NCBI GenBank assembly: GCA_963920575.1
Contig: OY986965.1
Span: 406,866-470,865 of the forward strand
Length of the DNA stretch: 64,000 nt
Direction: 5' to 3'
From: Narthecium ossifragum
Taxonomy: Eukaryota; Streptophyta; Magnoliopsida; Dioscoreales; Nartheciaceae
In this document: positions 12,021 to 41,200 of the stretch, piece after piece
Layout of the letters: the number at the start of each line of letters is the position of its first letter
Position numbering within the stretch: the first letter of the stretch is position 1
Translations under genes and position numbers: made by a program
The notes under the pieces: model-generated
Told to the model about the DNA's origin: nothing
What the model saw: the letters and a program-made list of their open reading frames with translations, nothing else
Database searches by the model: none

Positions 12021-12382
12021 CTCACATCTGTTGGTCCCCATTACGTAAGCCAATAATACATGGCCACGTAAGCCATGTGCAGTGTACACAAATCTTTTTT
12101 CCTCTTAGATGGGATTTCGTATGAATGATAATTATGTAGCTGCACATGCAGAAAAAGTAGTACTAATGTATCAATAATGATTTGTTGTTCCAAAAATACA
12201 TACTTTATAAACTTAAATAAAAATTAACAATGACATAATCAAAACATCTTTTTGGTGCGGGGCTAATTTTCTAATGCACAACTTCATATCTCAATTTGTT
12301 AGCCAAAATAATGACTAACTCATAAATGACGGACACGTAAGCAGAAAGCAATTACTAAATGAACGATAACTACATAATCTTA

Positions 12383-12721
12383 TCGACCAGATGAAACCTA
12401 TCGATCAAATGAACGATAGAGTCTATCGACCAAATGGACGATAAAATATCGACCAAATGAAACGATGGAATCTATCGACCAAAATGGACGATAGAATTTT
12501 AACCAAATGGACGATATCGTCCATATGGCACCATCATTTAAAGGATTATGGACGATCATCGCCCAAAAGTCACAATTGGACATGTTACTCAATTTTATCG
12601 TCCAAAAGCAATTAACACGTGTGCCAAATATGGTTAAAAAACACATGCATGTATGACGTGGACAAGAAACGATAAGTAAGCCAACGTAATCATGACGTAT
12701 GCAATGAACGAGAATCGACCA
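12383..12721. promoter_or_regulatory. U3 array of TCGNCCA / TGGNCGA motifs with palindromes
   Basis: By eye this 339-bp stretch has eight TCGNCCA and four TGGNCGA sites. Several pair into palindromic forms such as TATCGACCAAATGGACGATA, and there is one perfect palindrome TGGACGATATCGTCCA at 12508-12523. The array lies about 120-460 bp upstream of the TATA box, where enhancer-type sites would be. The same array is in the 3' LTR. The function is unknown. Confidence 0.6.
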
Positions 12722-12839
12722 CGTGTACTCTTCAAACCAGACACAAACGTGGGAGAAGCTGTTACGGAGCAGTTCGCACACGATCTCCTTTTTCCATGCC
12801 ATCAACCCTCAAGGCAGGAGCAGTTATTCAGTTCCTTAG

Positions 12840-12847
12840 TATAAACA
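12840..12847 (+). promoter_or_regulatory. LTR TATA box
   Basis: TATAAACA here; the 3' LTR has TATAAATA at 26265-26272. Position and composition fit the U3/R promoter of the element. Confidence 0.6.
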
Positions 12848-13568
12848 GCTTCTCTTCTCCACTGTAAACCACCCCCGACAATCTGTAACCTGCTCTTAAG
12901 CATGGCTTTCGTTTCTTTTGTACCTGTAAGTTGATTAATAAAGCTTTCAGTTTGATTAATGGCGTCTTTTATTACTTTCTTAGCATAATCTCAATAATGT
13001 AGTCGTTTTAATCGTCTTCTCCTCTTTTCTTTCTGTCTTGTAGTTCTAGGTTAATGGATTTCTTTCCGTTTCCGTTTTCTGTCAGTTTCTTTTTCATAGT
13101 TTAATTAAGTTAAATTAGTTTTAAGTAAGATTAAATTAGTCTTTTAATTACTGTTTCGTTATTCATGATCATAGGAGTATTTTAAGATTAATTTAGGTTT
13201 AATTAGTCCTTTTTATTGCTTTTCTTACAGCTTTCTTTACTGTTTTTCATTAGAATAAGTTACTGTTTTCTTAGATTAAGTTAATTTAATAGGTTTTATT
13301 GCGTTTTCTAGATTCAGTAATTTAAGTTGATTTTTATGTTTTATTTAATTTCGTAATCTTAGACAATTTACAGCCTTTCTTAGGTTAATTTTGATAATTA
13401 GATTATTTAATTAGGTCTAATCTAGATTTCCATATTACATGACATCTCTGGTTCATTAATTTAAAATAGTAGAACTCAACTGCAATCGTTTGATACTTAA
13501 GTGTGGAATAGGATTTTGACTTTGACTATTTGACCGGTCAACGGTTGGATTTCCTCTCTAACATTTTT

Positions 13569-13586
13569 TGGCACGCCCGGTGGGAC
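13569..13586 (+). other. Primer-binding site
   Basis: TGGCACGCCCGGTGGGAC starts five bases after the 5' LTR, beginning with the TGG that pairs with a tRNA CCA end. I could not assign the tRNA with confidence. Confidence 0.6.
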
Positions 13587-14506
13587 CTGTGTCAAGTCTT
13601 TATGGAAGTCGGTCAAGTTGGACAAGACGAAATGGTCATCACTAGGACTGGTTTAGATGCTAATAATGGTAGTGGAAATGCCGCCGATCACGGCGATGGC
13701 CAACAAAGTCCAATTGTGGTCGAGGAAGAGCCTGTTCTCTTTCCATCTCTCGACCAACCACATGTTTCTCCACCTGTTCCCCCACCACACATAGAATACC
13801 GAGATAGGGTGGTTTATCGCTCTGTAGAGCGAGGGAACTCATCAGCCAGAGTTGGCCTAGATCCAGGAAACATAACGTCAAATACAGCCCAAAATATGGT
13901 CGATGAAGCTTTACATGCTAACAATCAGCAAATGGCAAGTCATATCGCCACTGCTCTAAGGCCTTTTATTGACACTATGCAGACTTTTATAAACGCAACT
14001 TTGTCTCAGGCAAACCCTGGATCAAATGTTGCTAGGCCTACCATGTCAGCAATCCCTATCGGCCAAAACCCCACCCAAAACAATCGTCCATTTCAGCCCA
14101 ATACGGTCATGGGACCTGGTGGTAATAACGGTTTTGTTCTTTTACAAAATCCAATGCATAGCCAAAACCGTATCGGCCAAAATAGCCAGGTTGGCCAAAC
14201 TAGTACAACCCATCATCGGCCATCGATGCACAATGAGAATAATCCAAGACCAAATTTAATCGGTCAAACATCTGGGTTGTTTCCATCGCCAACACAAATA
14301 CATCATAATAATGAGGTGTTAACTCCTGGAGCAATACCAAACAATGGTGTCCCTCCTCTTCAAGGAGTTCAAGGTGGTGTTGTGCCTCCTGCACAGGGAG
14401 CGCCTAATAATGGAATTCCTTTAGGTCAGGGTATACCAGTAGGTGGAATGCCTTTGGTTATGGGAGAGAACATTCTTCAAAACATTCCCCAGAACGTTCC
14501 TCCAAA

Positions 14507-14668
14507 TGGTCAGAACTTTGTGTACCCAAACAATGGCCAAAACATGGTTTACCCAAACAATGGCCAAAACCTTATTTACCCAAACAACGGCCAGAACCCT
14601 ATTAACCTAAACAATGGTCAAAATGTTGCTTTTCCAAACAATGGCCAAAATATCGGCCAAAATAACAA
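14507..14668 (+). repeat. 30-bp minisatellite in gag (NNGQN-type repeats)
   Basis: Five in-frame units of ten codons encode variants of YPNNGQNMV. Third-position changes vary between units while Asn-Asn-Gly-Gln-Asn is kept. Further NGQN and IGQN pieces lie on either side. Confidence 0.75.
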
Positions 14669-16772
14669 CTTGGATGCTCAAGCCCAAGGGTTTCCACAGA
14701 ATAACTATGGGCAAATAGGTGGTCAAGTTAATCGGCCAGTAGGTAATAATTTTTATAATCAAAGAATGGTCGATGGACAACGCATGGATGATATCCCCTA
14801 TCAGAATAATTATCGACCATATGAGGCACCTATGTATTGTGCTCGACCACCAAACGAGCAGTATGACCAAGTGTACAACAACCCTCTTTACAATCAGGCC
14901 GATGCTCTACATGAACAAGTCGCTGAGATTCTACAAGAGCAAATAGGTTTAGGACGACCAGCTACTCGTCCAACTTATAGAAAACCTTATCCTGATTGGG
15001 TTGACCAAATGTACCCTCTCCCTAGGAACTATAAAGTTCCAGAGTTTACTATGTTCTCTGGGGTAGATGAGATATCGACCATTGAACACATAGGGAAGTT
15101 CTCCATGCAATGTGGAGAAGTGAACGATTTCGTCAAACTTAGACTATTCCCTAACTCTTTGTCTGGGGTAGCTTATTCATGGTTCATTAAGCTATCGCCC
15201 AATTCTATTCAAAATTGGCAGCAAATGGAACATGCGTTCCATTCTCAATTTTATAAGTCAGAACCGGAAATAACAATGGCCGACTTAGCTCAACTTAGAC
15301 AGCGGCCAGATGAGAATGCTGAATCATTCTTACAAAGATTTAAAAGAGCGAGAAGTAGGTGTTTTATTCCCTTGCCTGAAAGGGAATTTGTAAAAATCGC
15401 TCAAAGCGGATTAGCCTTTGAACTTAAGAAGAAGTTCCAAGATAGGGATTTTATCGACCTATTTCAACTGCAGACTAGCGCTATATGCTATGAACAGTTG
15501 TTGAGAGAAGAAGATCAGATGAAATCATCTTCTAAAGGAACTTACTATAGATATACTAATTATGAAATAAACCAAGTTAGTGACATCGATGAAGAAAACT
15601 ACAATATGAACGATGTTTGTCTGGCCGAGCTCCTTAAGGGAAAACTTTATATATGTAAAGCTCTCGCCAAACTTGAGCGAGAACTTAAGGGTAAAGAAGT
15701 ACTTAGAGACGGTAAACGTCCAATGCGAAAGTTTTCTTTTGATGTTTCAAAGGCTGATCAAATCTTTGATCAATTACTCAAAGATAAACAAGTTAAATTG
15801 AAAGATGGACATGCTATGCCAAGCCTTGATGAGATCAAGGACAAAAGATATTATAAGTGGCATAATGCTTGGTCACATCACACTAACCAATGTTTGGCTT
15901 TCCGTAATGTTTTGCAGGATGCGATTGATTCCGGAAGGATTGGTTTCTCAGCCAAGCACATGGGAGTTGACGCAAATCCATTCCCCAAAGCTGCTTCAGT
16001 GGGAATGGTGTTGACAGATGTGGCAAACTTCAAATTGCCAAAGTTCAAGATTGTTATCGATGAAAATGAGGACGACAATCGTCCAGATGTCTTCGCAAGA
16101 CTTGGCCAAGACAAAGGGAAGGAGCCTGCCATTCCACATGTCTGCCCAAGATGTCATTGGGATCTCAGTCGCCCGATGACACCGTTCTCAGGGACCAAGT
16201 TTCCTCATTCACAGTCTAGGCAGTGAAACAGGGTTAAGCCTCATGTGTATCCAAAAAGCTTTATGCCTCAGCCTTACAAGCCAGAGCGATGGTATAACTA
16301 CAACTGCTATACTCGTCGTTCAGTTCCTGTGGAGGAGATGACAAGGACTCAGTACCGCCGCCACCAGAAGAAGTATGGCCAGATGATGAAGGCCAAGCAA
16401 GCCCAGGAAACCAACCCAAGTCAGGATGAGGAGGTTGAGTATATTGAAGAAGATGTTGCTGTCTCCAATGCAACAGAGTCTTCAAAGAGCAAGTTCCATC
16501 GTCCAAACAAGGATGATGACGATGAGACTGGAGCAAACCAAGTGATCAGGTTCGGAACACTCCCGTCGGTCATCGTCAACAACTACATTTTACCCAGTCG
16601 CCTTGGACAACAGTGTCCAACTGAAAGCGACTCTGATATATCAGATATGACCGATGATGGATCATTAGCCACACTGGTCGAGGAAGATGAAGACACATCG
16701 GCTACCTTGGTCGATGAAATGGAAAATTCACCCTCAGTGAACTTAGTGCTCGACCAGGACGATGAATACGTC

Positions 16773-17252
16773 GAGATCGAGGAAAAAATCGACGTCACTG
16801 AAGAGGCTTGGAGGAGGAATATATCTACAGAACAACTGTTGAAACAGTTGTATGAAGAAGGAAATCCAGCAGTTGGACCAGGTGGCCAGCCAAGTGGCCG
16901 ATATGATTATCTCCGGGTTTATGGAGACGTCAAGGTGAAGCGTCTTGTAAAAAAGACGGAAGTTGTCGCCCAAATCATACCATCAACATCAACAACAATT
17001 GTTCCGACCAGTTGGGGAGATGAAGAACAAGAACCCATGGTTGAGAATGTTGAATGGGTGGAAATAGAAGTACCCATCAAAGTCAACGAGGAAGCAGCGA
17101 GAAGGAATATTTCTCAAAAGAAGTTACTGATGGATCTCTACAAGGCAGGTAATCCAGCTATCAGTACTCAGGGCCAACCAAGTGGAAAATTTGATTACTT
17201 GGTTTGCTATGGCGATCCCATTGTGAAGAAGTGGGTTCCCAAGTCAGATGTT
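16773..17252 (+). repeat. Duplicated 64-codon domain between gag and protease
   Basis: Segments 16773-16964 and 17061-17252 are each exactly 192 bp and encode related 64-residue blocks. Shared features in order are EIE, EEA.RRNIS, LL..LY..GNPA, GQPSG..DYL..YGD and a basic end (K.VKK / KKWVPK). Protein similarity is clear while the DNA has diverged. I do not recognise the domain. Confidence 0.8.
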
Positions 17253-18124
17253 GCCAAATACAGTCCGCCAGCAAATGAAGCACCAATCATCCCAACTGGT
17301 TGGGACATGGAAGAATCAGAGGCACAACAGGAACAACACCAAATGGATCAACAGTGGCCGTCATGGGATGGTCAAGAGAACCCAGAAGTCGTCCAGGTGG
17401 CAGCTAAGGCCAAGGGAAAAGCAGTCGACCATCAACCTCAGTCATCGGCCAGTTCACACAAGAAAGCCCACCAAGATTTGAACAATGCAGTGTTCGAACG
17501 ACCTCCAGCAGCAATGACGCGCCATTTACGGCCTCTTCATATCAAAGCCGAGATCAATGGTGTCCCAGTAAGCAGAGTCCTAATTGATACCGGGGCCGCA
17601 GTGAACGTCATCCCTGTAAAGATGATGAACAAGCTGCACAAAACCGATAGTGATCTTATCCCCACGGATATCACACTAACCGGATTCAGTGGAGTTCCAG
17701 CCCCAGCAAGGGGGATCCTTCCTTTGGATATTAAGGTTGGAAGTGTAACAAGAACGACAGCGTTCTTTGTCATGGACTCATCGACCAGCTATAACGTGCT
17801 GCTTGGTCGAGACTGGATTCATGCCAGTCAATGTGTTCCTTCGTCTCTTCACCAATGCTTGTTTTTATGGAACGACCAGGGGAACGTGGAGTCAGTCATG
17901 GCCGATAACATGCCATACAGTATGGACACGCATGCTTTGGAGGCATCCTTTTATGATTGCAATTATGGGCCCTTACAGTTCCTTCAGTTTGAAGATACAC
18001 TCAAGGTAGTTTCTGAAAACGGGGTTATGTTAAAAGAGCGTGTGGCGGAATTGTTTGATCCGGCAAGACCAATCTCAGTGGTCTTTGCACCCAAAGCTGG
18101 CCGATCACCGGCCACAAGTCAGAA

Positions 18125-21100
18125 ATGATGAGTTCAGACTCTGAAAGAAGTCAGGCCGCTGTAACGGCCTTAAAAGCCAAGCTAATGGCTTATCAAGTGA
18201 AAGCGTTCGCTGCACAAGAAGAAAACGACCTAGATTGTCTAAAAGAGATCCCCCAAGAAGACGAGGAAGAAGTCCCATATGGCAAACGTGGAAATATGCA
18301 AGCTCAAGACCCTTTGGAAGAAATCAACCTTGGTGATGGCGAGGAGCATCGTCCAACTTTCATCAGCAAGCTTATCGACCAAGATGTAAGGTACAAACTC
18401 ATTGCTATTTTGCGTTCTTATAAAGATTGCTTTGCATGGGATTATAAAGAAATGCCTGGTTTGGATAGGAATATTGTAGAGCATGAGCTTCCTACTCGAC
18501 CAAATTTTAAACCATATAAGCAAGCGCCTAGACGCTTTGCTCCAAACATAATCCCAGAAGTAAAGAAAGAAATTGAACGATTATTAAATGCTAACTTTAT
18601 TAGAACAGCCAGGTATGTAGAGTGGCTTTCTAATATAGTACCAGTTAAGAAGAAAAATGGCAAACTTAGAGTTTGTATAGACTTTAGAAATTTAAATTTG
18701 GCTACTCCCAAGGATGAGTATCCTATGCCATCGGTCGATAATTTAGTTGATTCCACCGCTGGGCACGAGATATACTCATTTATGGATGGGTATTCTGGAT
18801 ATAACCAAATTTATATCACCGATAATGATGTTCATAAAACGGCATTTAGATGTCCATGATCACTTGGAAGTTATGAATGGGTTGTTATGCCCTTTGGTCT
18901 AAAAAACGCTGGTGCAACTTATCAGCGAGCGATGAATTTGATTTTTCATGATATGATTGGCCACTTTGTTGAAGTTTATGTTGATGACATTGTAGTGAAG
19001 TCACCAATTATGGCCGATCACTTTTCACAATTGATTAAAGCTTTTGAGCGAATGAGAGAATATAATTTAAAGTTAAATCCCTTGAAATGTGCCTTCGGAG
19101 TACAGGCAGGGAATTTTCTTGGTTTTCTCGTCCATCAGCGAGGAATTGAACTTGACCAAAACAAAACAAAGTCTATAATTGAGGCCAGTTCTCCAAAGAC
19201 TAAGAAAGAACTGCAAAAGTTTCTTGGTCAAGTGAATTTTTTAAGAAGGTTTATTGCTAACTGTGCAGGTAAAACTCAAGAGTTTTCATCGCTCTTAAGG
19301 TTAAAGAATGAAGACGATTTCGTCTGGGAAGAGCGACATCAACAAGCCTTTGAACGCTTGAAGCAATGTTTATCAACGCCACCAGTTATGGCGCCGCCAA
19401 GGTTGGAACAACCCATGAAGCTCTACATCGCTGCAGCAGACCGATCAATAGGCGGTCTCTTAGCGCAAGATGGCAAAGATGGATTTGAGAGAGCAGTGTA
19501 TTATCTAAGTAGACAGTTGTTACCTTATGAACAGAAGTACTCGGCCATAGAAAAGTTGTGCTTGGCCTTGTATTTTATGTGTACCAAGCTTAGAGCTTAA
19601 TTAAAACCTGTAACAGTCTACTTGATATCTAAGTTCAATGTATTAAAGTTCTTGTTTTCTCGACCAATTTTGCACCTGCGTATTGGTTATTGGGTTTTAA
19701 CTTTTGCTGAGTTTGATATTCAATTTGTATCTCAAAAGGCTGTTAAGGGCCAAGCATTGGCCGATTTTTTAGCTGACTATCCTTGTGTAGATATACCAAA
19801 GGAGTTAGAGCGAGAGATTAACAACGTAGCGCTCACCCCCTGGACGATGTACTTTGATGGTTCTAAAACTATCAGTGGGGCTGGCCTTGGGATCACGATC
19901 CTATCGCCCATTGGACGCAAATATAAATTTGCGTATACTCTATCGCAATTATGTACTAACAATCAGGCTGAATATGAAGCTCTAATCATCGGCCTAGAAA
20001 TTTTGTTAGACTTAGGAGTGTCCAATGTACAAATCAAAGGTGATTCACAATTAGTGATAAATCATATACTTGGACATTATAAATGTCAAAGCGATATTTT
20101 AATTCCATTTCATCAAATCGCTCTAATGTTGTTAAATCGTTTTAACGATTTTGAACTATTATTCGTTCCAAGATTACAGAACGATGAAGCTAATACCCTC
20201 GCCCAAATAGCATCAGGCTACAAAGTGTTAAAACACTTGGGGGGCATGAACGATTTCCGTTCTGGCATAATTCAATCTGCACTAGAGTGATTTCATTGGC
20301 CAAACGAGGTAAATCACATCGATAGCCAACCGGATTGGCGGACCCCAATCGTCGATTTTTTGAAGGACCCATCGCTTAAGGTCGATAGAAAAATCCGTCT
20401 TAAAGCGATACATTATTTCCTACAAAACGACGTTTTATATAAACGTCGACCAGATGGCATCTTATTGCGCTGTTTGCACCCTGATGAGGCTAAATTGACG
20501 ATGGCCGAAATACATAATGGTGTTTGTGGAGCACATCAGTCTTGCATCAAAATACGCTGGCTAATAATGCGCAGCGGCTTTTATTGGCCACGCATGGGGG
20601 AGGAGTGTGCTATATATGCCAAAGGATGTGAAGCATGCCAAAGACATGGTCCATTACAACGAGCTCCAGCAAGTGAATTATCGATCATTGTCAAACCTTG
20701 GCCATTCAGATGTTGGGCGATAGACATTATAGGGAAAATTTATCCTCCATCATCCATGTTGCACAAGTTTGTAATTGTGGCGACAGATTACTTTACTAAA
20801 TGGGTGGAAGCGATTCCATTAAAAAATGTTTCTGATGATCAAGTGATAAATTTCATTTGGGAAAACATCATATGTAGATTTGGCATTCCACAAACAATTG
20901 TGTCCGATCAAGGGACAATGTTTGTAAGTTCTAGGGTAAAGAATTTTTTGGCGGAGTATAAAATTAATATGGCCAATTCTACACCCTACTATGCCCAGTC
21001 TAATGGACAAGCTGAAGCGTCCAATAAAACCATCAAGTCAATCATAAGAAAGATGATGGACGATAACCCAAGGCAATGGCATGAAGGTTTACTAAGAGCG

Positions 21101-21592
21101 TTATGGGCACATAGAACTGCACCTAAGTCTAGTACTAAGGTTACGCCTTACCAATTGGTCTATGGTCAAGAAGCGGTGCTACCGGCTGAGATAAATGTTC
21201 TATCGCCCAGAGTTATGGAACAAGATCGCTCAACTAGTGAGGAATATGAAGACGCATTAATGTATAATCTTTTAGAGCTAGATGAGCAACGAGCTATTGC
21301 CTTGGAAAATATAGAAGCACAAAAGTTAAAAGTGGCCGATATCTACAATAAAAGGGTGGTATCAAAAGAGTTTCAAGAAGGAGATCTAGTTTGGAAAACG
21401 ATCCTACCTATAGATCGTAATGATCCCAAATATGGAAAGTGGTCGCCCAACTGGGAAGGACCATACTTGGTCGATCAAGTATTTCCAAATGGATCATATC
21501 AACTGCGGAATATTGACGGTGGGTTGCATCGATCAATGATAAATGGTCGATACATTAAGAAGTATTACCCATCAATTGAACAAAAGACATAG
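18125..21592 (+). pseudogene. Retrotransposon pol: RT, RNase H, second RNase H, integrase; three in-frame stops
   Basis: Pol starts at ATG 18125, overlapping the gag-pro stop as ATGA, in a different frame. RT spans about 18480-19200 (FRNLNLATPKDEYPMP, the MPFGLKNAGATYQ block, catalytic YVDD). The RT-linked RNase H follows (about 19380-19600). A second, separate RNase H is at about 19840-20220 (MYFDGS, NNQAEYEAL, KGDSQLVI). Integrase occupies 20360-21592 with an H-H-C-C finger (KGCEACQRH), the catalytic D (AIDIIG), D (VSDQGTMF) and E (NGQAEASN), and the GPY-type end (WEGPYLV); it lacks a chromodomain. In-frame stops are TGA 18857, TAA 19598 and TGA 20288. The same frame resumes after each, so they are point disruptions. 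Confidence 0.9.
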
Positions 21593-21600
21593 AAGACAAA

Positions 21601-21673
21601 CGTCCTTAAAATATGGACGATAGCAATTAACAAAATACGTCCTTGAGATTTGGACGAGAGCAATTAACAAATA
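21601..21673. repeat. Two tandem 36-37 bp units in the spacer between integrase and the antisense gene
   Basis: Both units start CGTCCTT, carry GGACGA in the middle and end AGCAATTAACAAAATA or a close variant. They repeat the CGTCC/GGACGA half-sites seen in the LTR, so each unit could form a short hairpin. A TATCGGCCA site follows at about 21688. Confidence 0.7.
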
Positions 21674-21744
21674 TGTTCATTACAAAATATCGGCCAAAAG
21701 TGTGGCATTACAAGATCTTATCGCTCATATCAGACAAGGAAAAG

Positions 21745-24700
21745 TTACCTCTTTAAAGAGAGATTTTGAGATAAAAGAGCAATCTTTTCACGGATTGCCC
21801 TAAAGCATTGTTTGTTCTTCACAAGCTCACCCTTCAACTCGACTTGGCGATCTTTTGAGGAATTCGCCTCCAAAGCGACGTACTCTTGCATCATTTGGTT
21901 GCCCTCCTCAGCCAGTTGAGTAGTTTCGCGAAGGAGATAGTTCTTCTTAGTAGTACACTGGGCGATTTTTTCCTCTAACTCTTTCATTTGGTTCTGGTAA
22001 CCGAGAATCTCTGATTCTGTTTCGCCAATATCATCAGTATTTTTCTGAAGTTGTTTGACACGATTGCTGATGACGTCTTTGATATGGGTACGCCGCTCTT
22101 GACGTTCCCCTATAAGAACTATTTCATTCATCAAGTTGTTTCTCTCAGCAGTCAGACTCTCAACCTTGATCTTAATGTTGTGGATATCGTCCATATCACT
22201 GGATGAAAACCCTAAGATTGTTGGATCCACAGAGAGAAAGGGTGTTATAGCTTGGTCCAGTGCTTCGCTATCTGATCTGGTGAGATCTTCTTCAGGTAGT
22301 TTGTCCAAAACTACAAGACATTGAGATAGGGCTCGCCTGAATTCTTCATGTTGACTCCCTTGTGCAACTTCAGGGTCAACAGCCGTTTTCTTGGCAGTCA
22401 CTATAGAATGCCAGGAATCCGAGAAGGCCTGGACAATATTCATTAAATGGGCACCCTGAAAAGAACAAGCATTCAGTAAGAGTTAACACTAAATGATCGA
22501 CAGAATCGAATTGAACGATAAAATACCTGTGAAGAGGTAGAACTGGATGGATGAGTAGTGGGAGTAACAAAAGATGAAATTGAAGTCTTCATCGCAGAGG
22601 GAGCAGCTGCAGGGTTTTTAGTAGTCGCCTTTGTTTGAACATCAGTAGTTGATGTCAAAACATGAGAAGTTGGTGATATAATATCGTCCATCACTTGTTC
22701 AGGGACGTCGCGATGGGTTGTTGGAGATGCAATTATTGCCTCTGTTGATGAGACAACTGGAGAAGCAGCGATGCCCGGCTTAACGGTTTTGGCCGAGAGA
22801 TCTTCAACTTGAGTTGGAGCAGTTGGGATTTTAGGAGAAGCTGATACAGAAGATAAACTCGCATTACCAAGGTCTCGTAAAAAACTATACGGACCATGAA
22901 CGAGTTTTCTACCAGTTAATGACAAACCTGGTTTAGATGGAGTCGTATTTAAGACGTCAAAGATATTGTTATCGTCTTCATCCTCATCTTCTCGACCAGA
23001 ATCTTGACCACCAGATTTTGGTTTCCTCGACTCCTAAAAGAGTTAAAAGTCAGAGAATGGTCGATTGAATCGATCATCAATAAAATAAAAGTTATCTATA
23101 CTTTTATATTCTTTTGGGCGAGTCGTTTGAATCTACCACCAGAACGTACTTGCGCCTTGGTTTTTGAGGAAGATTTGGCCGAGGAAGTTGGAGGCACACT
23201 CTCATCAGCATGATCAGGAGAAGTTGGAGGATGTTCCTCGACCATTTGTGATGGAGACGTATCAACCACAACCTCAGGAACTTTGGTTGTAGGTCGAGAA
23301 GGAGACAAAGAATATAAAGAGCTCGGAGTACTAGAGCCCACTTCTACAGCAGCCCTGAAGACGCAAAAGTTTAAGTATCAAAAGGAAAAGGCAAACATAA
23401 CAAGAAAGAAAATGTTATGATACTCACGTGACATGAGCAGATTGACTGCTTCGATGACTGCTGCTGGGAGAATCAACCTTTTCCTCTGCAATTGGCCGAG
23501 AAGATGATTGATCTTTTTGAGAGGAAGATGGTTGAGGTTGGACGATAGTTTTTCCTTGACTACGTCTCTTTGTAAGCGGCTCATCATCCTCATCGTCAGA
23601 ATCTATCGATCGAGGAGATGATTTATTTTTTGGAGAAGAAGATGGTTGAGGTTGGACGACGGTTTTTCCTTTACCGCGCTTCTTTTTGGGCGGTGCATCG
23701 CCCTCATCGTCTGAACCTATCGATCATATTGTATTAGATGAAAAAAGGATATAAAAAATTCAAGGAGAACGATGAAGATATACCTTTTGTCTTTCGTTTG
23801 CTTGGTCGATGACTAGCAATCACTTGCTTTTGTCTTTTCTTCTCCTTTGGAGGAATGAACTTTTCAAAAACTAGGTCCTTGTCAGCAAAGAAAAGACGTT
23901 CATCAACCATTTCTTTTCAGCTATCAGTGATACTAGCTTCAATCTCGCTAGTAGGCTCAAAAGGTCTAAGCCTAAACCTCTTGATGAGGAACAATTCTCT
24001 CTTATCCACATAAATTACTCGCTCCATCTCTGAGAAAACACATCGCCCTCTAGCGACGATATTAAAGCTGAAGTATGGTGGCACTGGCCAAGACTGTTTA
24101 AGGCCAAATTGACGAGCAGCAAAATTGGGAGCGTAAACTTCTACTCCACATTTATTGTTTGCCTTACCCCAAGCCGTATCAAAATGAAGGTCACGGTCGA
24201 TGAGAAAACGAGCCCAAGCTAATATTTTATCATCAGACTCTAAGTCTGAAGAAAGGTCAAGCAAAGGCTTAATAGACGATGGATGAGACTCAGGATTGAA
24301 TGGGCGATAAGAAGAAAAATTGGACAGAGTATAGAAATAATTGAAGGCCTGTCGAAAGGACTTGGGAATAGAAGATGAAGAAAGATACAAATGGCCTTGA
24401 GTTCTGGCCGATGACGATGAAGGTGGCATATGAAGATCAGGGAAGTAAGCTCTAAGCCATAGTTGGACGAGCCACAAAGGACCAAATCCCGTCAAGCTAC
24501 CCCCTTCTCTCAACTGCTCAAGGACGAGATACATTCCTCGATAAATGGCCGACAAAATAAAAGGAGCAAGAGAAAAAACTTGTTTGCCCGAGGAAAGATC
24601 CCGAGCGAGTGGGATATACCCCTTAACAGGCTTTTTGGCAGGAAGGCAAAGGACATATTTACAAAGCCAATAGTAAATGAACGCTAATCGTTCAAGAGAG

Positions 24701-25368
24701 TTTGGAGGGCCATCGCTCTCAGACAACTTGGCATAGTAACTAATGAAAAGACTATAGTTCTTATCGGCCTCAAAAACGATTTCTTTCTTGGGTACGTCCA
24801 TATTGGCCGATACAGAAGTACCAAGTGGAGTTAAACCGGTTAAGAGCGATATGTCCATTATAGTTATGGTGAGCGAACCAAAAGGGAAGACAAAATTGTT
24901 ATATTCTGTCGACCAAAAAAGAAGCGACGAAATAAGCAAGTTAGAATCTTGAAGAGGAATCATGGTGCTCAAGTCCAAGAAATCCAAAATACCCGCCTCA
25001 GAAAAAATTGACTTAGTCTCAGAATGGCCAATCATCCTATTATACCATTTGACAAACTTGTCATCAACTAATGGCCAGGAGATGATAGGGTTTTTTGAAG
25101 AAAGAGAAGAGAGATTTAGGGTTCCAGAAAAGGGCAAATCGCCAGAAATAGGAAAAGAATTCACAAGAACAGTCTCCTCGGAACCAAGGGAAGGAATACT
25201 TTCCGGAATGAAGCAAGGACCCAAAGTAAATAATTGAGAGTTAAGGTCACCTTCCCGGACCAGATAACCGCTCCTTATATCATCCGACTTCATGTTTTCA
25301 TTGAAATCTCCCACGGCGGACGTCACTTCTTTCTGCACATTATTATCAGCTTTGATCTCACGAACCAT
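21745..25368 (-). CDS. Antisense spliced gene inside the retrotransposon: plant-mobile-domain-like protein
   Basis: Five exons, 5' to 3': 25368-23784, 23716-23428, 23354-23102, 23033-22527 and 22455-21745. The four introns are only 67-73 bp, all GT-AG, and phases match at every join, giving 3345 nt. One TGA at 23919-23917 breaks the frame, which stays open after it. The first ~460 residues resemble the plant mobile domain (aminotransferase-like, as in MAIL1/MAIN proteins): FVKWYNRMIGHSETKSIF, then FPFGSLTITIMDISLLTGLT. The middle has a basic stretch (PPKKKRGKGK) within two 38-codon repeats and is Ser/Thr/Pro-rich. The last ~230 residues look coiled-coil (MKELEEKIAQ). A TATA-like TTTATTTAA lies about 145 bp upstream (25511-25519). 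Extra antisense ORFs with this domain are known in Tat elements; the role is unknown. Confidence 0.75.
23487..23714 (-). repeat. Two tandem 114-bp units in exon 2 of the antisense gene
   Basis: Units at 23714-23601 and 23600-23487 each encode 38 residues: an acidic start (SDDEGD / SDDEDD), a basic cluster (KKKRGKGK / TKRRSQGK), then VQPQPSSS and a Ser-rich end. The basic clusters look like nuclear-localisation signals. Confidence 0.8.
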
Positions 25369-25710
25369 GATGACGAATGGGTGTAGACGCCGGAGTTAAG
25401 AAGAAAAGAACAAAGAACCGCCGCGGAGGTAGGTAAAGAGCAGTAAAACCCTAGGAGACTTGAAGAAGAAGACAGGCGAAGAAAGTTCTTTCCTTGCTAA
25501 AGGAAGGGATTTAAATAAAGGGTTTTTTGTCGTTACTTGCCAGAAGGTTTAAATGCCGGATCCCAAAAGATTTGGATAGAGAAAAGAAACGGCGCAGCGG
25601 TTCATTTTCCTAAACATCCGCCATGATTAAATTTGAAAACATAGGCAAAACGGTCAAATCCCGGATGATGTGGTCACCTCGTCATTAAAGTGTCTCCTCG
25701 ATTACCGCAT

Positions 25711-25721
25711 GGGGGGCAAAA
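25711..25721 (+). other. Polypurine tract
   Basis: GGGGGGCAAAA lies directly against the start of the 3' LTR, where plus-strand DNA synthesis is primed in LTR retrotransposons. Confidence 0.8.
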
Positions 25722-26986
25722 TGTTAGCCAAAATAATGACTAACTCATAAATGACGGACACGTAAGCAGAAAGCAATTACTAAATGAACGATAACTACAT
25801 AATCTTATCGACCAGATGAAACCTATCGACCAAATGAACGATAGAGTCTATCGACCAAATGGACGATAAAATATCGACCAAATGAAACGATGGAATCTAT
25901 CGACCAAAATGGACGATAGAATTTTAACCAAATGGATGATATCGTCCATATGTCACCATCATTTAAAGGACTATGGACGATCATCGCCCAAAAGTCACAA
26001 TTGGACATGTTACTCAATTTTATCGTCCAAAAGCAATTAACACGTGTGCCAAATATGGTTAAAAAACACATGCAGGTATGACGTGGACAAGAAACGATAA
26101 GTAAGCCAACGTAATCATGACGTATGCAATGAACGAGAATCGACCACGTGTACTCTCCAAACCAGACACAAACGTGGGAGAAGCTGTTACGGAGCAGTTC
26201 GCACACGATCTCCTTTTTCCATGCCATCAACCCTCAAGGCGGGAGCAGTTATTCAGTTCCTTAGTATAAATAGCTTCTCTTCTCCACTGTAAACCCCCCC
26301 GACAATCTGTAACCTGCTCTTAAGCATGGCTTTCGTTTCTTTTGTACCTGTAAGTTGATTAATAAAGCTTTCAGTTTGATTAATGACGTCTTTTATTGCT
26401 TTTTTAGCATAATCTCAATAATGTAGTCGTTTAATCGTCTTCTCCTCTTTTCTTTCTGTCTTGTAGTTCTAGGTTAATGGATTTCTTTCCGTTTCCGTTT
26501 TCTGTCAGTTTCTTTTCCATAGTTTAATTAAATTAAATTAGTTTTAAGTAAGATTAAATTAGTCTTTTAATTACTGTTTCGTTATTCATGATCATAGGAG
26601 TATTTTAAGATTAATTTAGGTTTAATTAGTCCTTTTTATTGCTTTTCTTACAGCTTTCTTTACTGTTTTTCATTAGAATAAGTTACTGTTTTCTTAGATT
26701 AAGTTAATTTAATAGGTTTTATTGCGTTTTCTAGATTCAGTAATTTAAGTTGATTTTTATGTTTTATTTAATTTCGTAATCTTAGACAATTTACAGCCTT
26801 TTTTAGGTTAATTTTGATAATTAGATTATTTAATTAGGTCTAATCTAGATTTCCATATTACTTGACATCTCTGGTTCATTAATTTGAAAGAGTAGAACTC
26901 AACTGCAATCGTTTGATACTTAAGTGTGAAATAGGATTTTGACTTTGACTATTTGACCGGTCAACGGTTGGATTTCCTCTCTAACA
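25722..26986 (+). repeat. 3' LTR (1265 bp)
   Basis: Matches 12297-13563 with about 18 substitutions and two 1-bp indels counted by eye. It carries the same U3 motif array, with the perfect palindrome here reduced to TGGATGATATCGTCCA. It is followed by the CAATT target duplication at 26987-26991. Confidence 0.95.
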
Positions 26987-27338
26987 CAATTAACAAAATC
27001 TTTGAAGGTCGTAGACACATTAATATGCGAGAACATAGATATATTTAAAAGTTTTCCCACTAAGCTAATAATTATTGAACATTTTTAAATCGTATCATAG
27101 ATTCAATCGTGGTTTGGCACGTGCTTCAACTTGCGGAACCACTGCTTATTATTGAAGAATGGAATCCACTGCTTTACCTCAACCGGGCAACCTCCACTTG
27201 TTATAGTTGTAGTTATTCCCGCTGTTCTTATCCTAACAGCTAATTGCTATCTGACGACGCGAGTTCGAAGCCCGAATCCCCTTCAAACCCTAGCCCCATT
27301 AATCCGCCATGAACGCGCCTTAGAAGCTCCAAACGGCC

Positions 27339-28715
27339 ATGTCGATGGATCCGCATCGCCCCGAGAAGAACGGCCGCTGCTATGGCGAAGGCGAGGAGAA
27401 CGGCCCGGCGGTCAAGAAGATGCGACCGTCGCCGACTATCACCGCCGATGAGATCGTCGAGGAGTTCTCCCACCACGCCCCCGGCGTCGCCCGGATCAAC
27501 AACGGCAGCTTCGGGAGCTGCCCCGGCTCTGTTCTTGCTGCCCAGTCGCGGTGGCAGCGGTTGTTCCTCGCGCAGCCTGACGACTTCTACTTCCACGGCC
27601 TCCAGCCCTCGATCCTCCGATCACGGACACTGGTCCGCGATCTCATCAACGCTGACGAGGTTGACGAGGTCTCCCTCGTCGACAACGCCACCACAGCCGC
27701 AGCCGTCGTCCTCCAGCGCGCAGCATGGGCGTTCCGCGAGGGTCCCTTCTCCCCTGGCGACGCGGTTGTCATGCTCCACTACGCGTATGGCGCCGTTAAG
27801 AAGTCCATCCATGCCTATGTCTCCCGCGCCGGCGGACACGTCATCGAGGTCCCCCTCCCTTTCCCCGTCTCCTCCCCCGATGAGATTGTCCAAGAATTCA
27901 AGAACGCTTTGGCGATTGGGAAAGCTAATGGCCGGAAGGTCCGTCTTGCCGTCATCGACCATATTACGTCGATGCCGAGTGTTGTGATTCCTGTGAAAGA
28001 ACTGACCAAGATTTGCCGCCAGGAGGGTGTCGATCAGGTCTTCATCGATGCTGCTCATGCTATTGGCAATGTGGAGATTGATGTGAAGGACATTGGGGCT
28101 GACTTCTATACCAGCAATCTCCATAAGTGGTTCTTTTGCCCCCCTTCGGTCGCATTCCTCTACTGCCGGAAATCCTTAGTGTCCAATGAGATGCATCATC
28201 CGGTGGTCTCCCATGAGTACGGCAATGGACTGGCCATAGAGAGCGGGTGGATTGGAACAAGGGACTACAGTGCCCAGCTTGTCGTCCCTGAGGTATTAGA
28301 TTTCATCAATAGATTTGAAGGTGGGATAGAAGGGATTCGAAAGAGAAACCATGATAAGGTTGTCAAGATGGGAAAGATGCTGGCAGAGGCATGGGGAACT
28401 TGCCTGGGGTCGCCCCCACACATGTGCTCGAGCATGGTCATGGTTGGGTTGCCGAGGTCTTTGAGGATATCAAGCAATGAGGACGCAATGAATTTGAGGA
28501 ATATGTTAAGGAAGGACTTTGATATTGAAGTTCCGATATACCATAAACCGATTGATGGCGAGGTCAGTGAGAAACCTTTGAGCGCTCTGTTGACAGGGTA
28601 TGTGAGGATTTCTCATCAGGTATACAATGTGGAGAATGAGTATCACAGGCTTAAAGATGCAATCAACAAGCTTGTGCAGGATAACTTCAATTGTGGGATG
28701 TTACCATCCAAATGA
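27339..28715 (+). CDS. LCD: L-cysteine desulfhydrase (PLP-dependent), intronless
   Basis: A complete 458-residue frame of the plant LCD family, which splits L-cysteine into pyruvate, ammonia and hydrogen sulfide, a signalling molecule. The sequence is a class V aminotransferase fold. It contains INNGSFGSCPGSV near the start, VFIDAAHAIGNVEID (the Asp-His pair facing the cofactor) and TSNLHKWFFCP, whose Lys (about residue 263, codon 28125-28127) should hold PLP, then GTRDYSA. Start ATG 27339 is followed by a second in-frame ATG six bases later; either could be used. No transit peptide is evident, which suits a cytosolic or nuclear form. The first half is extremely GC-rich at third positions and the second half is not, a gradient seen in many monocot genes. 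The Tat element ends 350 bp upstream. Confidence 0.9.
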   Translation: MSMDPHRPEKNGRCYGEGEENGPAVKKMRPSPTITADEIVEEFSHHAPGVARINNGSFGSCPGSVLAAQSRWQRLFLAQPDDFYFHGLQPSILRSRTLVRDLINADEVDEVSLVDNATTAAAVVLQRAAWAFREGPFSPGDAVVMLHYAYGAVKKSIHAYVSRAGGHVIEVPLPFPVSSPDEIVQEFKNALAIGKANGRKVRLAVIDHITSMPSVVIPVKELTKICRQEGVDQVFIDAAHAIGNVEIDVKDIGADFYTSNLHKWFFCPPSVAFLYCRKSLVSNEMHHPVVSHEYGNGLAIESGWIGTRDYSAQLVVPEVLDFINRFEGGIEGIRKRNHDKVVKMGKMLAEAWGTCLGSPPHMCSSMVMVGLPRSLRISSNEDAMNLRNMLRKDFDIEVPIYHKPIDGEVSEKPLSALLTGYVRISHQVYNVENEYHRLKDAINKLVQDNFNCGMLPSK

Positions 28716-35200: not shown

Positions 35201-38200
35201 CTAAGTAGAGCCACTTGAATGAAGCGCTACTAAGGAGGCGTAGTTCCCGTCTTTTATCTTGACCAATGTTTCATGCCTTCCCTTCTCTATGATCACTCCA
35301 TTCTTGACCACCCCAATCAAATCTGCATTTCTGATTGTAGATAGCCGGTGTGCGACAACCACAGTGGTCCGATTCGCCATCACCCGATCCAGTGCATCTT
35401 GAACTATTTTCTCAGACTCTGCATCGAGAGCACTTGTCGCCTCATCCAGCAGCAATATCTTTGGGTCCTTCACTATGGCACGGGCTATGGCCACCCTCTG
35501 TTTCTGACCTCCTGACAGTTGAGTTCCTCTCTCGCCAACTAATGTTTCATAGCCCTGCATTTTTCAAGTTTCACTTATAAGTGACAAAAAGTGATTAAAA
35601 GGTTTTGATGCTGACACGATAACTGGAGAAAGTTCAGGTTCATGCGCACATGTGACCTTTGTTGATGTACATATGCATATGAAGTGTCAATAAGATAAGT
35701 AATGCTCTTCTGCATCCAGAAGAGTGCTTTGATAATATAGGTTTCCAAATTTTCAAGTTCTGAGGAAAGTTCAAGGGAGTTGAGTTTTTTGAGAATGACT
35801 AAAGTTTCAAATGAAGTTGTCACATTGATCCTATATCATGATTTTTGTGATTCTGTTCTAACCTGCTGTAGTCCACTTATGAAATTGTGAGCATTTGCTG
35901 ATTTTGCGGCAGCTATGATCTCGTCCTCTGTCGCCATTCCTTCCTTCCCATAGGCTATATTAGCTCGTATGGTGTCATTAAACAAGGTCGGTTCTTGGCT
36001 CACTAGACCCATCTGCTGCCTCAACCACTTCAGCTGAAAGCTTTTTATTTCAATTCCATCTAGCAATATACAACCCGAATCAGGGTCATAAAATCTCTGC
36101 AAAAGTGATATTGCAGTTGATTTTCCACTCCCGCTCTCGCCAACCAGTGCGACTGTCTGGAGAAGTGAAATTTGTTGTTAGATTTCAGAGAACAGCCTTA
36201 TGAGCAGATCATACAGATGATGAAAGAAGGTTTGAGTGGACTCGAATAAAATAGATGCCAAAATACAAGAAAAAAACAGGCCATGAGAAAAAGTACTGCA
36301 CGTCAGAAGCTCAAACAAAAAAGAGAGAGGACAAAATAGGTAATCCAAATCAGCTATGGTTTGGAAGATTGAATTTTGTTAAGTGGGAATAATTGTAAGA
36401 TTGGCTCACCTTTCCAGATTGAATAGCCAAGCAGAAGTCTTGGAAGATCTGGACATCTGGCCTTGTAGGATACTTGAAACTTACATGCTGAAACTCGATG
36501 TTACCATTTAATCTTTCCGGTGTCAACCCGGTGTCGTTGCTGGAGTCTATCTGAGACTTCCGGTCTACGATCGCAAACACCGAAGCCGCAGCAATTTTAG
36601 CTTTTCCAGAGTCGGGCACTAAGGAGCTTGATTGAGACATTCCGACAGCTGCCATAACAAGAGCAAAGAAAACCTGCAAAGCAGATAAAAAGCAAGCAAA
36701 AAACAGTTATATTAATAGATGTTATCCCATGTCTGATTTACTTTAGAAGCTTGACTACGGTTTTCATTGTTCTCAATTCAAGATCACAGAATAATGAAGG
36801 ACCATCTTATCACAATCAGGATGGAAGTTGTTTTCTTCGGCTATTTTACCGTTTTAACTTTGGAAGAACTCAAAAGTGATCCTTTTTTAAGATTGTCTTG
36901 CAAATTTTTCTGCTAAAACAAATTGAAGCTTCTCCCATGAGTGTTGGTATCTTAGAATTGGATACGGTCCAAGTTGATGGGAGACTAAGAACTTACTTGG
37001 AAAACATTTGAGAAGGAGGTCCTGCCAGCTTGAACGAGCTTAGCTCCGGCATAAAAGCTGACAGAGTATATGCAAAACATCGTGAAGGAGGAGAAACCAA
37101 AGGCAAAGCCACTGATGTATCCTTGCCTAATCCCTGCTTTAAGAGGATTTTCGCATTTGTTAGTGTAGAGCTCCATAACCTTTGCTTCAGCTGAAAACGA
37201 AGCGACTGTTCGTATACTTCCAACTGCATCATTAGCAACTTGGCTTGCTTCCTCGTAACCTGCCTGCCACAAGTTATGAATTTTTTTTTCTCTCGTCAGC
37301 GACATAACCACTTACATAACTTTCTGGTTTCCAGTCAAAATCAGTGAATTCTTGAAATCAAGTATTTATGCAGCATCAAAGAAATTAATCATATGCAACT
37401 CCTAGATTGTTCTCTTTTTCTTTACAATTGTCGACTTCATTGGATATTTCGAACTGTGTAGACTTAAGAAATGCATGAAGCTTTAAACTGTTAGCGTTAA
37501 TCCTTTTAGGACACGTTATTCCTTATTTCTGCTTGTGTTCACATTAACCTACATAAGCTCTCCTTGATACCATTTTCAAACCACTAGTTGTCCCAAAAGT
37601 TTAAGCTGAAGGGTAGAGATGTATGTATTCATCTTGATTCTATTCTAACAGTCTCAAATTTAAGGACGTGTTCCAACCTTTGCATCTGCGCTGAATCCGG
37701 TCATGAACCTCATCTGGAGCCATCCCCCAAGTCCAACTAAAGGTATCAATGCCAGGACCACCAGAGACAGCTCCCAGCTAGCAGTGAATGCGATTACCAA
37801 TGCAGCAGATACAGTAGCAATATTCTGGACACTTAAGCCCAGTGCATCGCCAACAAGACCCCTAACCAAAGCAGCATCAGCTGAGAGCCTGGCGCCAATT
37901 GCTCCGCTCGAGTTCTCATGCCCATCGAACCATCCTATCTCCATTCTCACCACCTTCTCAAATGTCATCAACCTGATTCTTCTAATCAATTGTGACCCAG
38001 CAACAGCAAAGAAGTATGATTTCACTACATGAAAAACTAGTTGAACCAGGCCATTGATGACGAAAACTAATGCCCAGAAGCTAGTGTCACTCTTAATTTT
38101 TTCTGGCGGCTGGAAGAATGCTTTGATTATTTTACCAAAGAGTATGCCGAAGACTGGTTGCAGAACCCCGAGAACGATTGACGCAATGGCACCAAACAAA

Positions 38201-41200
38201 AGCTGTGGGATCTCAGGCTTGTTAAGATAAGCCAGGCGGCGCAGAGGTACTTTTACTGGCTTTTCAGGTGTAGTTTCTTCATCTGCTTGTTCTGTTGTGC
38301 CTTCTTCTGTTTCAAAAGCTAGAGGGAAATGCTTAGACATTGAAAAAGAGTAGCTGCCGGTTTCCAATGTTCGCTGGCTCATAGATCCGTTGAAGGAATT
38401 CTTTCCGCTGGGTTGCCGAAGTTCGTGCTTGCTCATAGATCGGTGGAAGGAATACTTTCCACTGGATTGCTTAAGTTCCTTGCCAGGGTTTTCTCTGACT
38501 CCATCTTTGTTTCCGTCCTGCAGCTGTATGAGTTGGCAGTAAGCACCCTCAGGATTCTTCAGCAGATCTGCATGTGAGCCTGATAGAATGCTGAATGTGT
38601 AAGTAAAAGGTGACAATGCAGTGAAGTTGTAGAGATGGAAATCAACCAGACCAGTTTAAGTTGACAGTAATGCATTCTGACAAGCTGTGATTATTTGTGA
38701 AAGGGATTCACCTTTTTCTACAATTGATCCTTGGTGGATCACTGCGATCATATCAGCATTCCGTATGGTAGTGAGACGATGAGCGACTGTGACAGTGGTT
38801 CTATTCTCCATGACTCTGTCAAGTGCTTCTTGCACAACTCTCTCTGACTCTGAATCCAGGGCACTTGTCGCCTCATCTAGCAGCAGTATTCTTGGGTCTT
38901 TCAGAATTGCTCTGGCGATGGCAATCCTTTGTTTCTGGCCACCTGACATCTGAGTTCCGTGTTCACCAACCATGGTGTCCATACCCTGAATTTTGGGAAT
39001 TACAGCATCTATGTTAGAAATGTTCTTCAGTTTGTATAGAAGAAGGAAGTATGATTCTGATGAAAGAAGCTTAACCTCGGGCATTTTGTCTATGAATTTC
39101 GTCGCATTAGCAAGTGCAGCTGCAGCTCCTATTTCTTCATTTGTTGCACCATCCTTGCCGTAGGCTATGTTGTCTCTAATGCTGGAAGCAAACAGTACAG
39201 GCTCCTGACTAACAAGTCCAATCTTCCCCCGTATCCATCTCAACTGGAAATCCTTGAGATTTATACCATCAATGAGGACTTCGCCGGCTTGTGGGTCGTA
39301 AAACCTTTGTATCAGACTAATGACAGTTGATTTCCCACTGCCGCTCCCTCCGACCAAAGCCACACTAGCGCCACTTCTGATGAACAGAGAGAATCCAGAA
39401 AAGATTTGCTCATCTGGTCTTGATGGATAGCTGAAGTAAACATTTTTCAGCTCTATATCTCCTCGAATATCTGCCAGCTTCTTCCCTTTTGCATCATAGG
39501 CATCGATCTCCGGCTTCCGATTGATAGTCTCAAACATCTTGAATGCTGCTGCTCGTCCTGCTGAAAATGCATTTATGCATGGTGATGCCTGGCCTAAAGT
39601 CCTGTCAGAGTGCCATAGGCAAAAGTTACATACATATATCTAGAGTTGTGATGAGGTAAGTCAACATACTGTACAATCCTGGTTGCTTTATATTCCTACT
39701 TACATGGAGCCCATCAAGATTGCAAGGATAACATTAATGATTGAACCTCCTGTATAGCCTTTATCCAGTATCAACTTCCCTCCATACCAAACACCCAAAG
39801 CGTACCCAAGGTTAAAGATCATCATAATGGCACCAAAACCGAAACCAGAAACCCAACCTTCATGGACACTGGATTTATGTGCACCCTTCAAAGACTCCTT
39901 ATACTTGTCCACACACTTCTTTTCCCCAGTAAAAGATGCGACCTAAGTAAGAGAGAAATATGTTTATCTCAAGAATACTATTCTCTTGCTAGAATGTCAC
40001 CATGTTCTATAAATATCTTCTAACTACAAGTCTCTCTGTGCTACTTACTGTTCTTATTGCACTGACTGTCTGTTCGACAACTACTGCTGCTTCTGCATAG
40101 GCGGCTGTTCCACGCGATGTTGCATTGGTGATGAGGACCGACATGATGCCGCCAGCGATCATGATTAACGGGATAGTGGTTAGCAAGACGAGAGTGAGGA
40201 GCCATCCTTCCACGAGTGATACAACAAAGGATCCAAGGAATGTCGTCATGAGCTGAATGAACTTCCCGACCTGTCATTTACTTCAAACACTTAAAGAATG
40301 AATCTGGTGAAGGCATAGACATTTAGTCTTCTTGCTACAAATCTCTCTCCCAACTACATTACTGATTAACTATTTCTTCCTAAACATCTTATTGCAGAAA
40401 AATCCTGCCAAATAGCAAATTTTAGTATATGGTTTTCCTTAAAATCCTGGTAAAGATGCAGGGGTTTGTGACTTATTGCAATCCGAGGGGTTCATGTTGG
40501 TACCTTTTCACCCATGGCATCTTGAATTAGAATAGTATCGCCAGACATCCTCCCGACAATTTCCCCTGTACTTGCTTCTGTGTCGAAGAATGCTACATCT
40601 TGCCTTAATATGGTTCTCAAGTACATGTTCCTTATCCTTGCAGCCTGTCTTTCCCCAGTAACTATCCAGCATGCCACCTCTGGCAAAGAGAATAGATGTA
40701 TTATACACTGTTTCAGCTATTGCTATCTCATGTAGTATTTCATAGGCTCAAATGGCTGATTCTACTTACGAAGAAATGATGCTACTCCTGCTCCAACTGC
40801 CAAATAGACAAATTCAAGAGCTACCTGAAAGTGTGCAAATATCACATTGGTAGGTTTCTTTTGTGTTTGTAATTTTTCTAGAGAGAACAAAAGTTATGTC
40901 AATTTTGCTGTTCTAATGATGATTAATCCACCTTCGGGTTCTCTTTTGCAGACAAAATGCAAAACAGGATGTGCCACAATGAAGTTAAATTAGAAAGAAA
41001 GAAAAAAAGAAAGCCAAGATATCTCGAAAAACTTGTGATTTGGCTGAAGATGAATGATCAAAAATAGATCAATTATTAGATATGACGGGAGATGAGGTGA
41101 TGCCCTTATGGAAGCAAGAACACATTACCTTGGTTACTTCATGAACCACATTATGCTTGTCTGTGGTTGCACCACCAAATGAGTTGATCAATTTTCCAAA

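Follow-up and report, generated by a model that had tools for sequence, protein, structure and literature searches.

The antisense gene and its product

The DNA analysed here (the window) is a stretch of 64,000 nucleotides of the Narthecium ossifragum genome (contig OY986965.1, positions 406,866 to 470,865), and it holds a 14.7 kb Tat-type Ty3/gypsy long terminal repeat (LTR) retrotransposon at 12297-26986. On the minus strand of this element, at 25368-21745 in the interval that separates pol (ending at 21592) from the 3' LTR (starting at 25722), lies the antisense gene that is the subject of this report. Its five exons join in phase across four short introns (all GT...AG, Table 1). This structure had been proposed in an earlier first-pass annotation made from the letters alone, and its five exons, four GT-AG introns of 67-73 bp and single TGA (codon 484) were all rebuilt exactly; its length of 1115 codons stands if the stop codon is counted, and the protein has 1114 residues. 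Read in any of its five other frames, the joined sequence contains 44-103 stops, with a longest open run of 94 codons, and the list of open reading frames (ORFs) has no sense-strand ORF of at least 100 codons within 21745-25368, on which ground sense-strand coding was rejected as the source of the constraint described below.

The layout of the protein is also as the first-pass annotation had described it. Exon 1 encodes a plant mobile domain, matched by profile PF10536 at residues 126-430 (E 4.2e-31, 108.8 bits against a gathering score of 34.9), basic clusters begin at residues 510, 524 and 539, serine, proline and threonine together make up 38-41% of exons 2-4, and exon 5 is predicted by AlphaFold2 from the single sequence to form one 114-residue helix (mean predicted local distance difference test score, pLDDT, 78). 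No Pfam family matched in exons 2-4 and the Pfam matches of exon 5 were weak and under their cut-offs; the best match in a sequence search of the PDB had an E of 0.56, and a scan of viral contigs for relatives found none.

Table 1. Features of the retrotransposon and its antisense gene, in window coordinates
Feature	Position	Strand	Basis or remark
5' LTR (TG...CA)	12297..13563	+	Self-comparison; edges and duplication read in the sequence
gag	13602..16226	+	PF03732 at 7e-14
gag frame continued, and protease	16227..18128	+	PF13650/PF13975 and ORF list; stop in frame at 16224-16226 in the window copy
pol: reverse transcriptase, RNase H, second RNase H-like domain, integrase	18059..21592	+	PF00078, PF17919, PF13456, PF00665, PF17921
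Exon 5: long-helix (coiled-coil-like) C-terminus and stop codon	21745..22455	-	AlphaFold2, single sequence
Intron 4, 71 bp, phase 0	22456..22526	-	Counterpart in related families
Exon 4: acidic patch, then Ser/Pro/Thr-rich	22527..23033	-	Composition
Intron 3, 68 bp, phase 0	23034..23101	-	Counterpart in related families
Exon 3: Ser/Pro/Thr-rich	23102..23354	-	Composition
Intron 2, 73 bp, phase 2	23355..23427	-	Counterpart in related families
Exon 2: basic clusters	23428..23716	-	Overlaps 114-bp tandem repeat
Intron 1, 67 bp, phase 1	23717..23783	-	No counterpart in three related-family gene models
Exon 1: mobile domain	23784..25368	-	Mobile domain at residues 126-430; TGA at 23919-23917
Putative own promoter and 5' leader	25369..25721	-	Low divergence; TATA-like TTTATTTAAAT at 25519-25509
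3' LTR	25722..26986	+	Self-comparison and sequence-read edges

Splice sites and introns among the copies

A search of the same genome (379 Mb) gave 88 scored copies, the window copy included, among 1228 first-look candidates, and these copies are 81-100% identical in protein. We examined 26 aligned sequences (rows), namely the window copy and 25 of the 87 other scored copies: 10-kb stretches of the 20 best-scoring ones (L009-L028) and ~4-kb stretches of five of the most diverged (L029-L033), hand-picked for low identity. In 18 of the 20 ten-kb copies pol lies opposite to the antisense gene and in none is it in the same sense, so the antisense placement noted in the window holds for most copies of the family.

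Of the 104 possible introns in these rows 103 could be scored, and they begin with GT in 103 of 103 cases and end with AG in 102 of 103. The splice dinucleotide columns of the alignment are invariant in 15 of 16 cases, a higher share than among intron-interior columns, where 129 of 231 are invariant (Fisher P=0.0017). Insertions and deletions (counted relative to the window in 20 copies) differ between the two kinds of sequence: 50 of the 54 in introns are of 1 bp, while in exons only 9 of 66 are of 1 bp and the commonest size is 6 bp (27/66), although 20 of these 27 are one exon 5 difference that separates the window from every other copy, and many of the exon differences of odd size fall within the unrelated 3' parts of L019 and L028. 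Relative to the window, 117 of 130 exon-rows have a net length that leaves the frame unchanged, even with the damaged rows included.

Have any of these introns been lost? Clean intron loss was seen in none of the 26 rows; intron 3 is gone from one copy as part of a larger deletion. A 26-base pattern for the spliced exon 1-exon 2 junction had no genome-wide match at up to 3 mismatches, a search whose positive control was local only: at 25 loci the exon 1-intron 1 boundary pattern was found in 23 and the spliced pattern in none. The equivalent exon 4-exon 5 patterns are weak and little informative (boundary 8/25, spliced 0/25). The first-pass annotation had argued that the introns persist owing to the antisense placement of the gene, and the lack of any row with clean loss fits this. 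Because they are present as their reverse complement in the genomic RNA, the introns would not be spliced out of it, and each new insertion would inherit an intron-bearing gene. Even a gene that had died would keep its introns if they were antisense, so their retention alone is no proof of function.

Related genes in other families

A second search of the same genome for more diverged loci, led by a fragmentary Abeliophyllum distichum protein (P0001), gave 69 matches, and stretches around a few of these (L034-L038) were taken. L034, L036 and L038 are members of one family, L037 and the second gene of L034 belong to another, and L035 is a mobile-domain piece. The L034 gene matches PF10536 with 82.7 bits and is 56% identical to the window protein over residues 1-614 and 35% over 882-1114; the corresponding values are 56% and 36% for L036, and L037 is 60% identical over 1-565 and 39% over 721-1114. 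The L034, L036 and L037 gene models (L034 open, the other two with one internal stop each) all have three introns of phases 2, 0 and 0 at the places of window introns 2, 3 and 4, the alignment of intron places being that of L034. The C-terminus of pol was found beyond the gene on the opposite strand in all four loci tested (L034, L036, L037 and L038).

The phase 1 intron 1 of the window is missing from the L034, L036 and L037 models, and for that reason it looks to have been gained in the window's family. A 114-bp tandem repeat at 23497-23725 encodes the repeated basic clusters and takes in the acceptor end of intron 1, and exon 2 is 114 bp shorter in L017, L029, L032 and L033. Since the 3' end of the intron sits in this repeat, the acceptor may have come from the repeat, a possibility suggested but not demonstrated by that position.

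Over 105 residues the pol tail of L037 is 92% identical to that of the window, whereas exon 1 is only 60% identical. On this comparison either the antisense gene evolves faster than the pol tail or it has been exchanged between families. At the L034 locus (L034:1-9901) a pair of antisense mobile-domain genes, each from a different family, is separated by about 8 kb in which a pol tail and CT/GA-rich stretches lie, and pairs of matches like this one are also present on C4, C10 and C13.

Selection on the protein and decay of individual copies

The ratio of non-synonymous to synonymous change (dN/dS) was calculated by pairwise Nei-Gojobori comparison as mean dN over mean dS, with intervals from a codon bootstrap. 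In the 26 rows it is 0.097 (0.073-0.123) for the mobile domain and 0.150 (0.119-0.179) for exon 1. In the 22 rows left after omission of L011, L014, L019 and L028, in which the 3' part is deleted or unrelated, it is 0.503 (0.422-0.612) for the linker, 0.165 (0.128-0.211) for exon 5 (where 4 of 231 pairs fell outside the distance bins, according to a log warning from the script) and 0.229 (0.199-0.259) for the whole gene. The same measure gave 0.119 (0.097-0.137) for pol from reverse transcriptase to integrase in 16 rows (L019 and L028 are without pol, and L020, L022 and L025 were dropped for gaps), and thus the most conserved part of the antisense protein appears to be constrained about as strongly as pol. 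In the 17 rows compared, pairwise difference at codon positions 1, 2 and 3 is 0.054, 0.045 and 0.137, with 0.114 in intron interiors; in all 21 rows the values are 0.063, 0.052 and 0.140, with 0.113 in intron interiors.

For the mobile domain dN/dS falls from 0.52 in the 10 pairs with dS <0.06 to 0.087 in the 201 pairs with dS >0.25, which is the pattern expected of selection along a transposing lineage followed by neutral decay of the individual insertions, except that binning by dS itself raises the ratio in the lowest bin and pol falls likewise, from 0.31 to 0.09. Stop codons are mostly particular to single copies, 26 of 31 stop sites being private in the 22 kept rows, and the stop of L019 falls in unrelated sequence. 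To judge from these comparisons, the antisense gene is selected in the family and the window copy is a dead descendant. The first-pass annotation had called it a working gene and not a leftover. "Working" holds for the transposing lineage, where selection is purifying, and not for the window copy, whose TGA truncates the protein after the mobile domain; "not a leftover" follows from the dN/dS values and not from the retained introns alone.

A separate observation concerns codons 751-780 (22821-22910, exon 4) in the fast-evolving linker, where synonymous change is very low (0.052) and equal to non-synonymous change; words akin to this stretch recur in L037.

The region upstream of the gene

Over the 353 bp that separate the ATG from the 3' LTR, the mean difference is 0.056 in 17 rows, as against 0.114 for intron interiors, and 20 of 21 rows retain the TATA-like TTTATTTAAAT, about 140 bp upstream of the ATG. 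For the 140 bp past the stop codon the mean difference in the same number of rows is 0.097; this 3' flank gives 0.14-0.24 per block if four damaged rows are kept, so that without them its contrast with the 5' flank is smaller. The conserved upstream DNA fits, and does not prove, a promoter belonging to the antisense gene, and it may instead have another role, for example in second-strand priming near the 3' LTR.

The element and its surroundings

The LTRs of the element (1267 and 1265 bp, termini TG...CA) are 98.4% identical by self-comparison, and a 5-bp duplication, CAATT, borders the element at 12292-12296 and 26987-26991. The Kimura distance between them is 0.0152. With substitution rates of 1.3e-8 to 7e-9 per site per year, this would place the insertion about 0.6-1.1 million years ago. 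The window-copy pol is a single frame with 3 in-frame stops.

The first-pass annotation had likened the element to those of the Tat lineage. Ogre and Retand, of that lineage, have two RNase H domains, the extra one between RNase H and integrase (PMC6317226), and the window element has the same order (PF17919/PF17917 at 18860-19600, PF13456 at 19601-20287 and the PF00665 integrase at 20291-21589), which supports a place in that lineage. Neither of these two named groups fits as it is described. In Ogre the gag-protease ORF and the reverse transcriptase-RNase H-integrase ORF are spaced by 274 bp on average and the spacer acts as an intron (PMC6317226), whereas in the window these ORFs overlap by 70 nt and there is no spacer. 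Retand has an antisense TRP28 (PF04195) ORF in 97% of recently active clusters (PMC11963269), and TRP28 had no match at E up to 0.1 in the parts of the antisense gene scanned (codons 1-483, exons 2-4 without boundary codons, and exon 5).

Where the gag-protease and pol ORFs overlap (18059-18128), the shift is to the -1 frame. All 19 aligned rows retain the closing TGA at 18126 and 18 of the 19 have the same local length, and this conservation points to programmed frameshifting or other recoding rather than damage. The sole XXXYYYZ heptamer in 18020-18139 (at 18090) is in the wrong phase.

Beyond the element, an open, intronless class-V aminotransferase-like host gene (PF00266) occupies 27324-28715 and starts ~340 bp past the 3' LTR. 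Pieces of an ABC-transporter domain lie on the minus strand at 35201-36174, and the 249 bp at 38747-38994 and the sequence at 35316-35563 are 75% alike; the region 35201-38994 perhaps contains a tandem host gene.

What kind of gene is it?

We consider it very probable that the antisense gene is a selected, intron-bearing accessory protein gene of this Tat-type Ty3/gypsy family. Several observations weigh against this or temper it. An in-frame stop is present in 22 of 26 rows (in 20 of them within codons 1-878), the window copy has its TGA downstream of the mobile domain, net frame changes affect 13 of 130 exon-rows, and 25 of 26 rows have at least one defect among stops, net frame changes, loss of the ATG and loss of a splice site. 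The claim rests on the DNA sequence of one genome and on 25 of the 87 other copies, 20 of them the best-scoring, and the dN/dS values come from copies that are related and not independent, with only codons bootstrapped. The predicted structure of the mobile domain is unusable (pLDDT 30). The sole relative in the protein database is the fragmentary P0001, 29% identical over 35% of the query, and its C-terminus has no significant match to exon 5.

Could these defects mean that the gene is a captured host gene carried without function, or some other leftover? The damage in nearly every row and the fact that antisense introns would also outlast a gene's death speak for such an explanation, but it does not account for dN/dS values well below 1, for splice sites that are kept, or for intron phases common to families whose proteins are 35-60% identical, and we regard it as very improbable. 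It is scarcely credible that the introns were read by chance into a broken ORF. Short AT-rich introns are easily proposed by eye; the near-perfect conservation of GT and AG and the matching phases of three introns in the related families show more than chance, and on these grounds that reading was rejected. An effect of the antisense RNA rather than of a protein, through double-stranded RNA or interference with the sense transcript, is a possibility that has been raised for antisense ORFs (PMC7264820), and the gene does lie wholly opposite the genomic RNA, but such a role does not predict the differences among codon positions given above or dN/dS values of 0.10-0.23 outside the linker, and it is very unlikely. 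The accessory protein gene remains the best explanation, and it indicates that a family of LTR retrotransposons can keep a spliced, cellular-style gene over long evolutionary times by antisense placement. Genes of this kind would be overlooked or cut short by annotation that seeks single open ORFs.

What might the protein do? The gene would be transcribed from a promoter of its own just internal to the 3' LTR, and the antisense transcript would be spliced, losing three or four short introns, to give a protein of ~1,000-1,100 residues whose mobile domain is followed by basic clusters resembling nuclear-import signals and by a coiled-coil tail; from this layout we infer a nuclear, self-associating protein. 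The cellular mobile-domain proteins MAIN and MAIL1 act in silencing (PMC5418596), and a review suggests that mobile domains encoded by elements may be counter-silencing (PMC8616336). Our tentative proposal, which we hold with well under even confidence, is that the protein acts in the nucleus and in trans on the host silencing or transcription machinery, where it might imitate or compete with MAIN/MAIL1 so that the element is transcribed. A competing idea, doubtful in our judgement, is that the protein instead serves the element's own cycle as a nuclear cofactor (in integration-complex import, choice of integration site or RNA export) and has no anti-silencing function. The basic clusters, the predicted helical tail and selection about as strong as that on pol agree with it, as do the nuclear location of the Grande antisense protein and the comparison with retroviral accessory proteins drawn in the same review (PMC7264820); it leaves unexplained the domain shared with host silencing proteins, and no Pfam domain for such roles was found in the exons scanned. 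The defined gene model makes the counter-silencing idea directly testable.

A broader generalization of the counter-silencing proposal is speculative, and we put it forward with reserve: Tat-type elements might encode, in an antisense gene with several introns, a nuclear mobile-domain/coiled-coil protein whose role is to counter host silencing by mobile-domain proteins, the antisense placement keeping the introns and giving a host-like spliced mRNA, so that these genes would be a plant parallel to the antisense regulators of retroviruses.

Comparison with known systems

Several elements of this picture are already in print: antisense extra ORFs, Tat mobile domains, and an antisense gene with its own promoter and a nuclear product (PMC7264820, PMC6317226, PMC11963269, PMC5418596). 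A mobile domain is present in 57% of Ogre elements (PMC6317226), PMD-A1/A2 domains are exclusively Gypsy-encoded (PMC5418596), and mobile domains were found in the Gypsy consensuses of ten species (PMC9289625). These Tat/Ogre PF10536 extra ORFs resemble the window gene in being Gypsy-encoded mobile domains in an extra ORF; unlike here, no multi-intron antisense gene, splice conservation or dN/dS is reported for them in the sections of those papers that describe them. Plant LTR elements are generally without introns, Ogre and EVADE being among the exceptions (PMC12786077), and in both the introns (in Ogre, that of gag-pol) are in the sense transcript (PMC12786077, PMC6317226). Only a subset of Ogre transcripts is spliced, whereas the introns of the window gene are antisense and would be invisible to sense splicing.

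Retand, of the Tat group, has conserved antisense ORFs between pol and the 3' LTR, some with Smc-like domains (PMC11963269), and these are like the window gene in position. They encode TRP28, a different domain, and the word intron does not occur in the main text of that report (PMC11963269). The maize Grande gene23 is likewise antisense between pol and the 3' LTR, and it has its own promoter and a nuclear protein (PMC7264820); Grande-type proteins have no clear database similarity by the same account, while the window gene has a mobile domain and conserved introns. The same paper urges that antisense and spliced transcripts be examined (PMC7264820).

In the literature searched, which does not include the original extra-ORF (2011) and Grande (2013) papers, we came across no account of a conserved antisense gene with multiple introns. 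Outside plants a likeness is seen in HBZ of human T-cell leukemia virus type 1 (HTLV-1), a retrovirus of people; the HBZ mRNA is spliced, and the protein is unrelated to that of the window gene. HBZ too lies antisense in an LTR retroelement and has a product that is nuclear (PMC11963269), and its orientation is like that of the gene described here.

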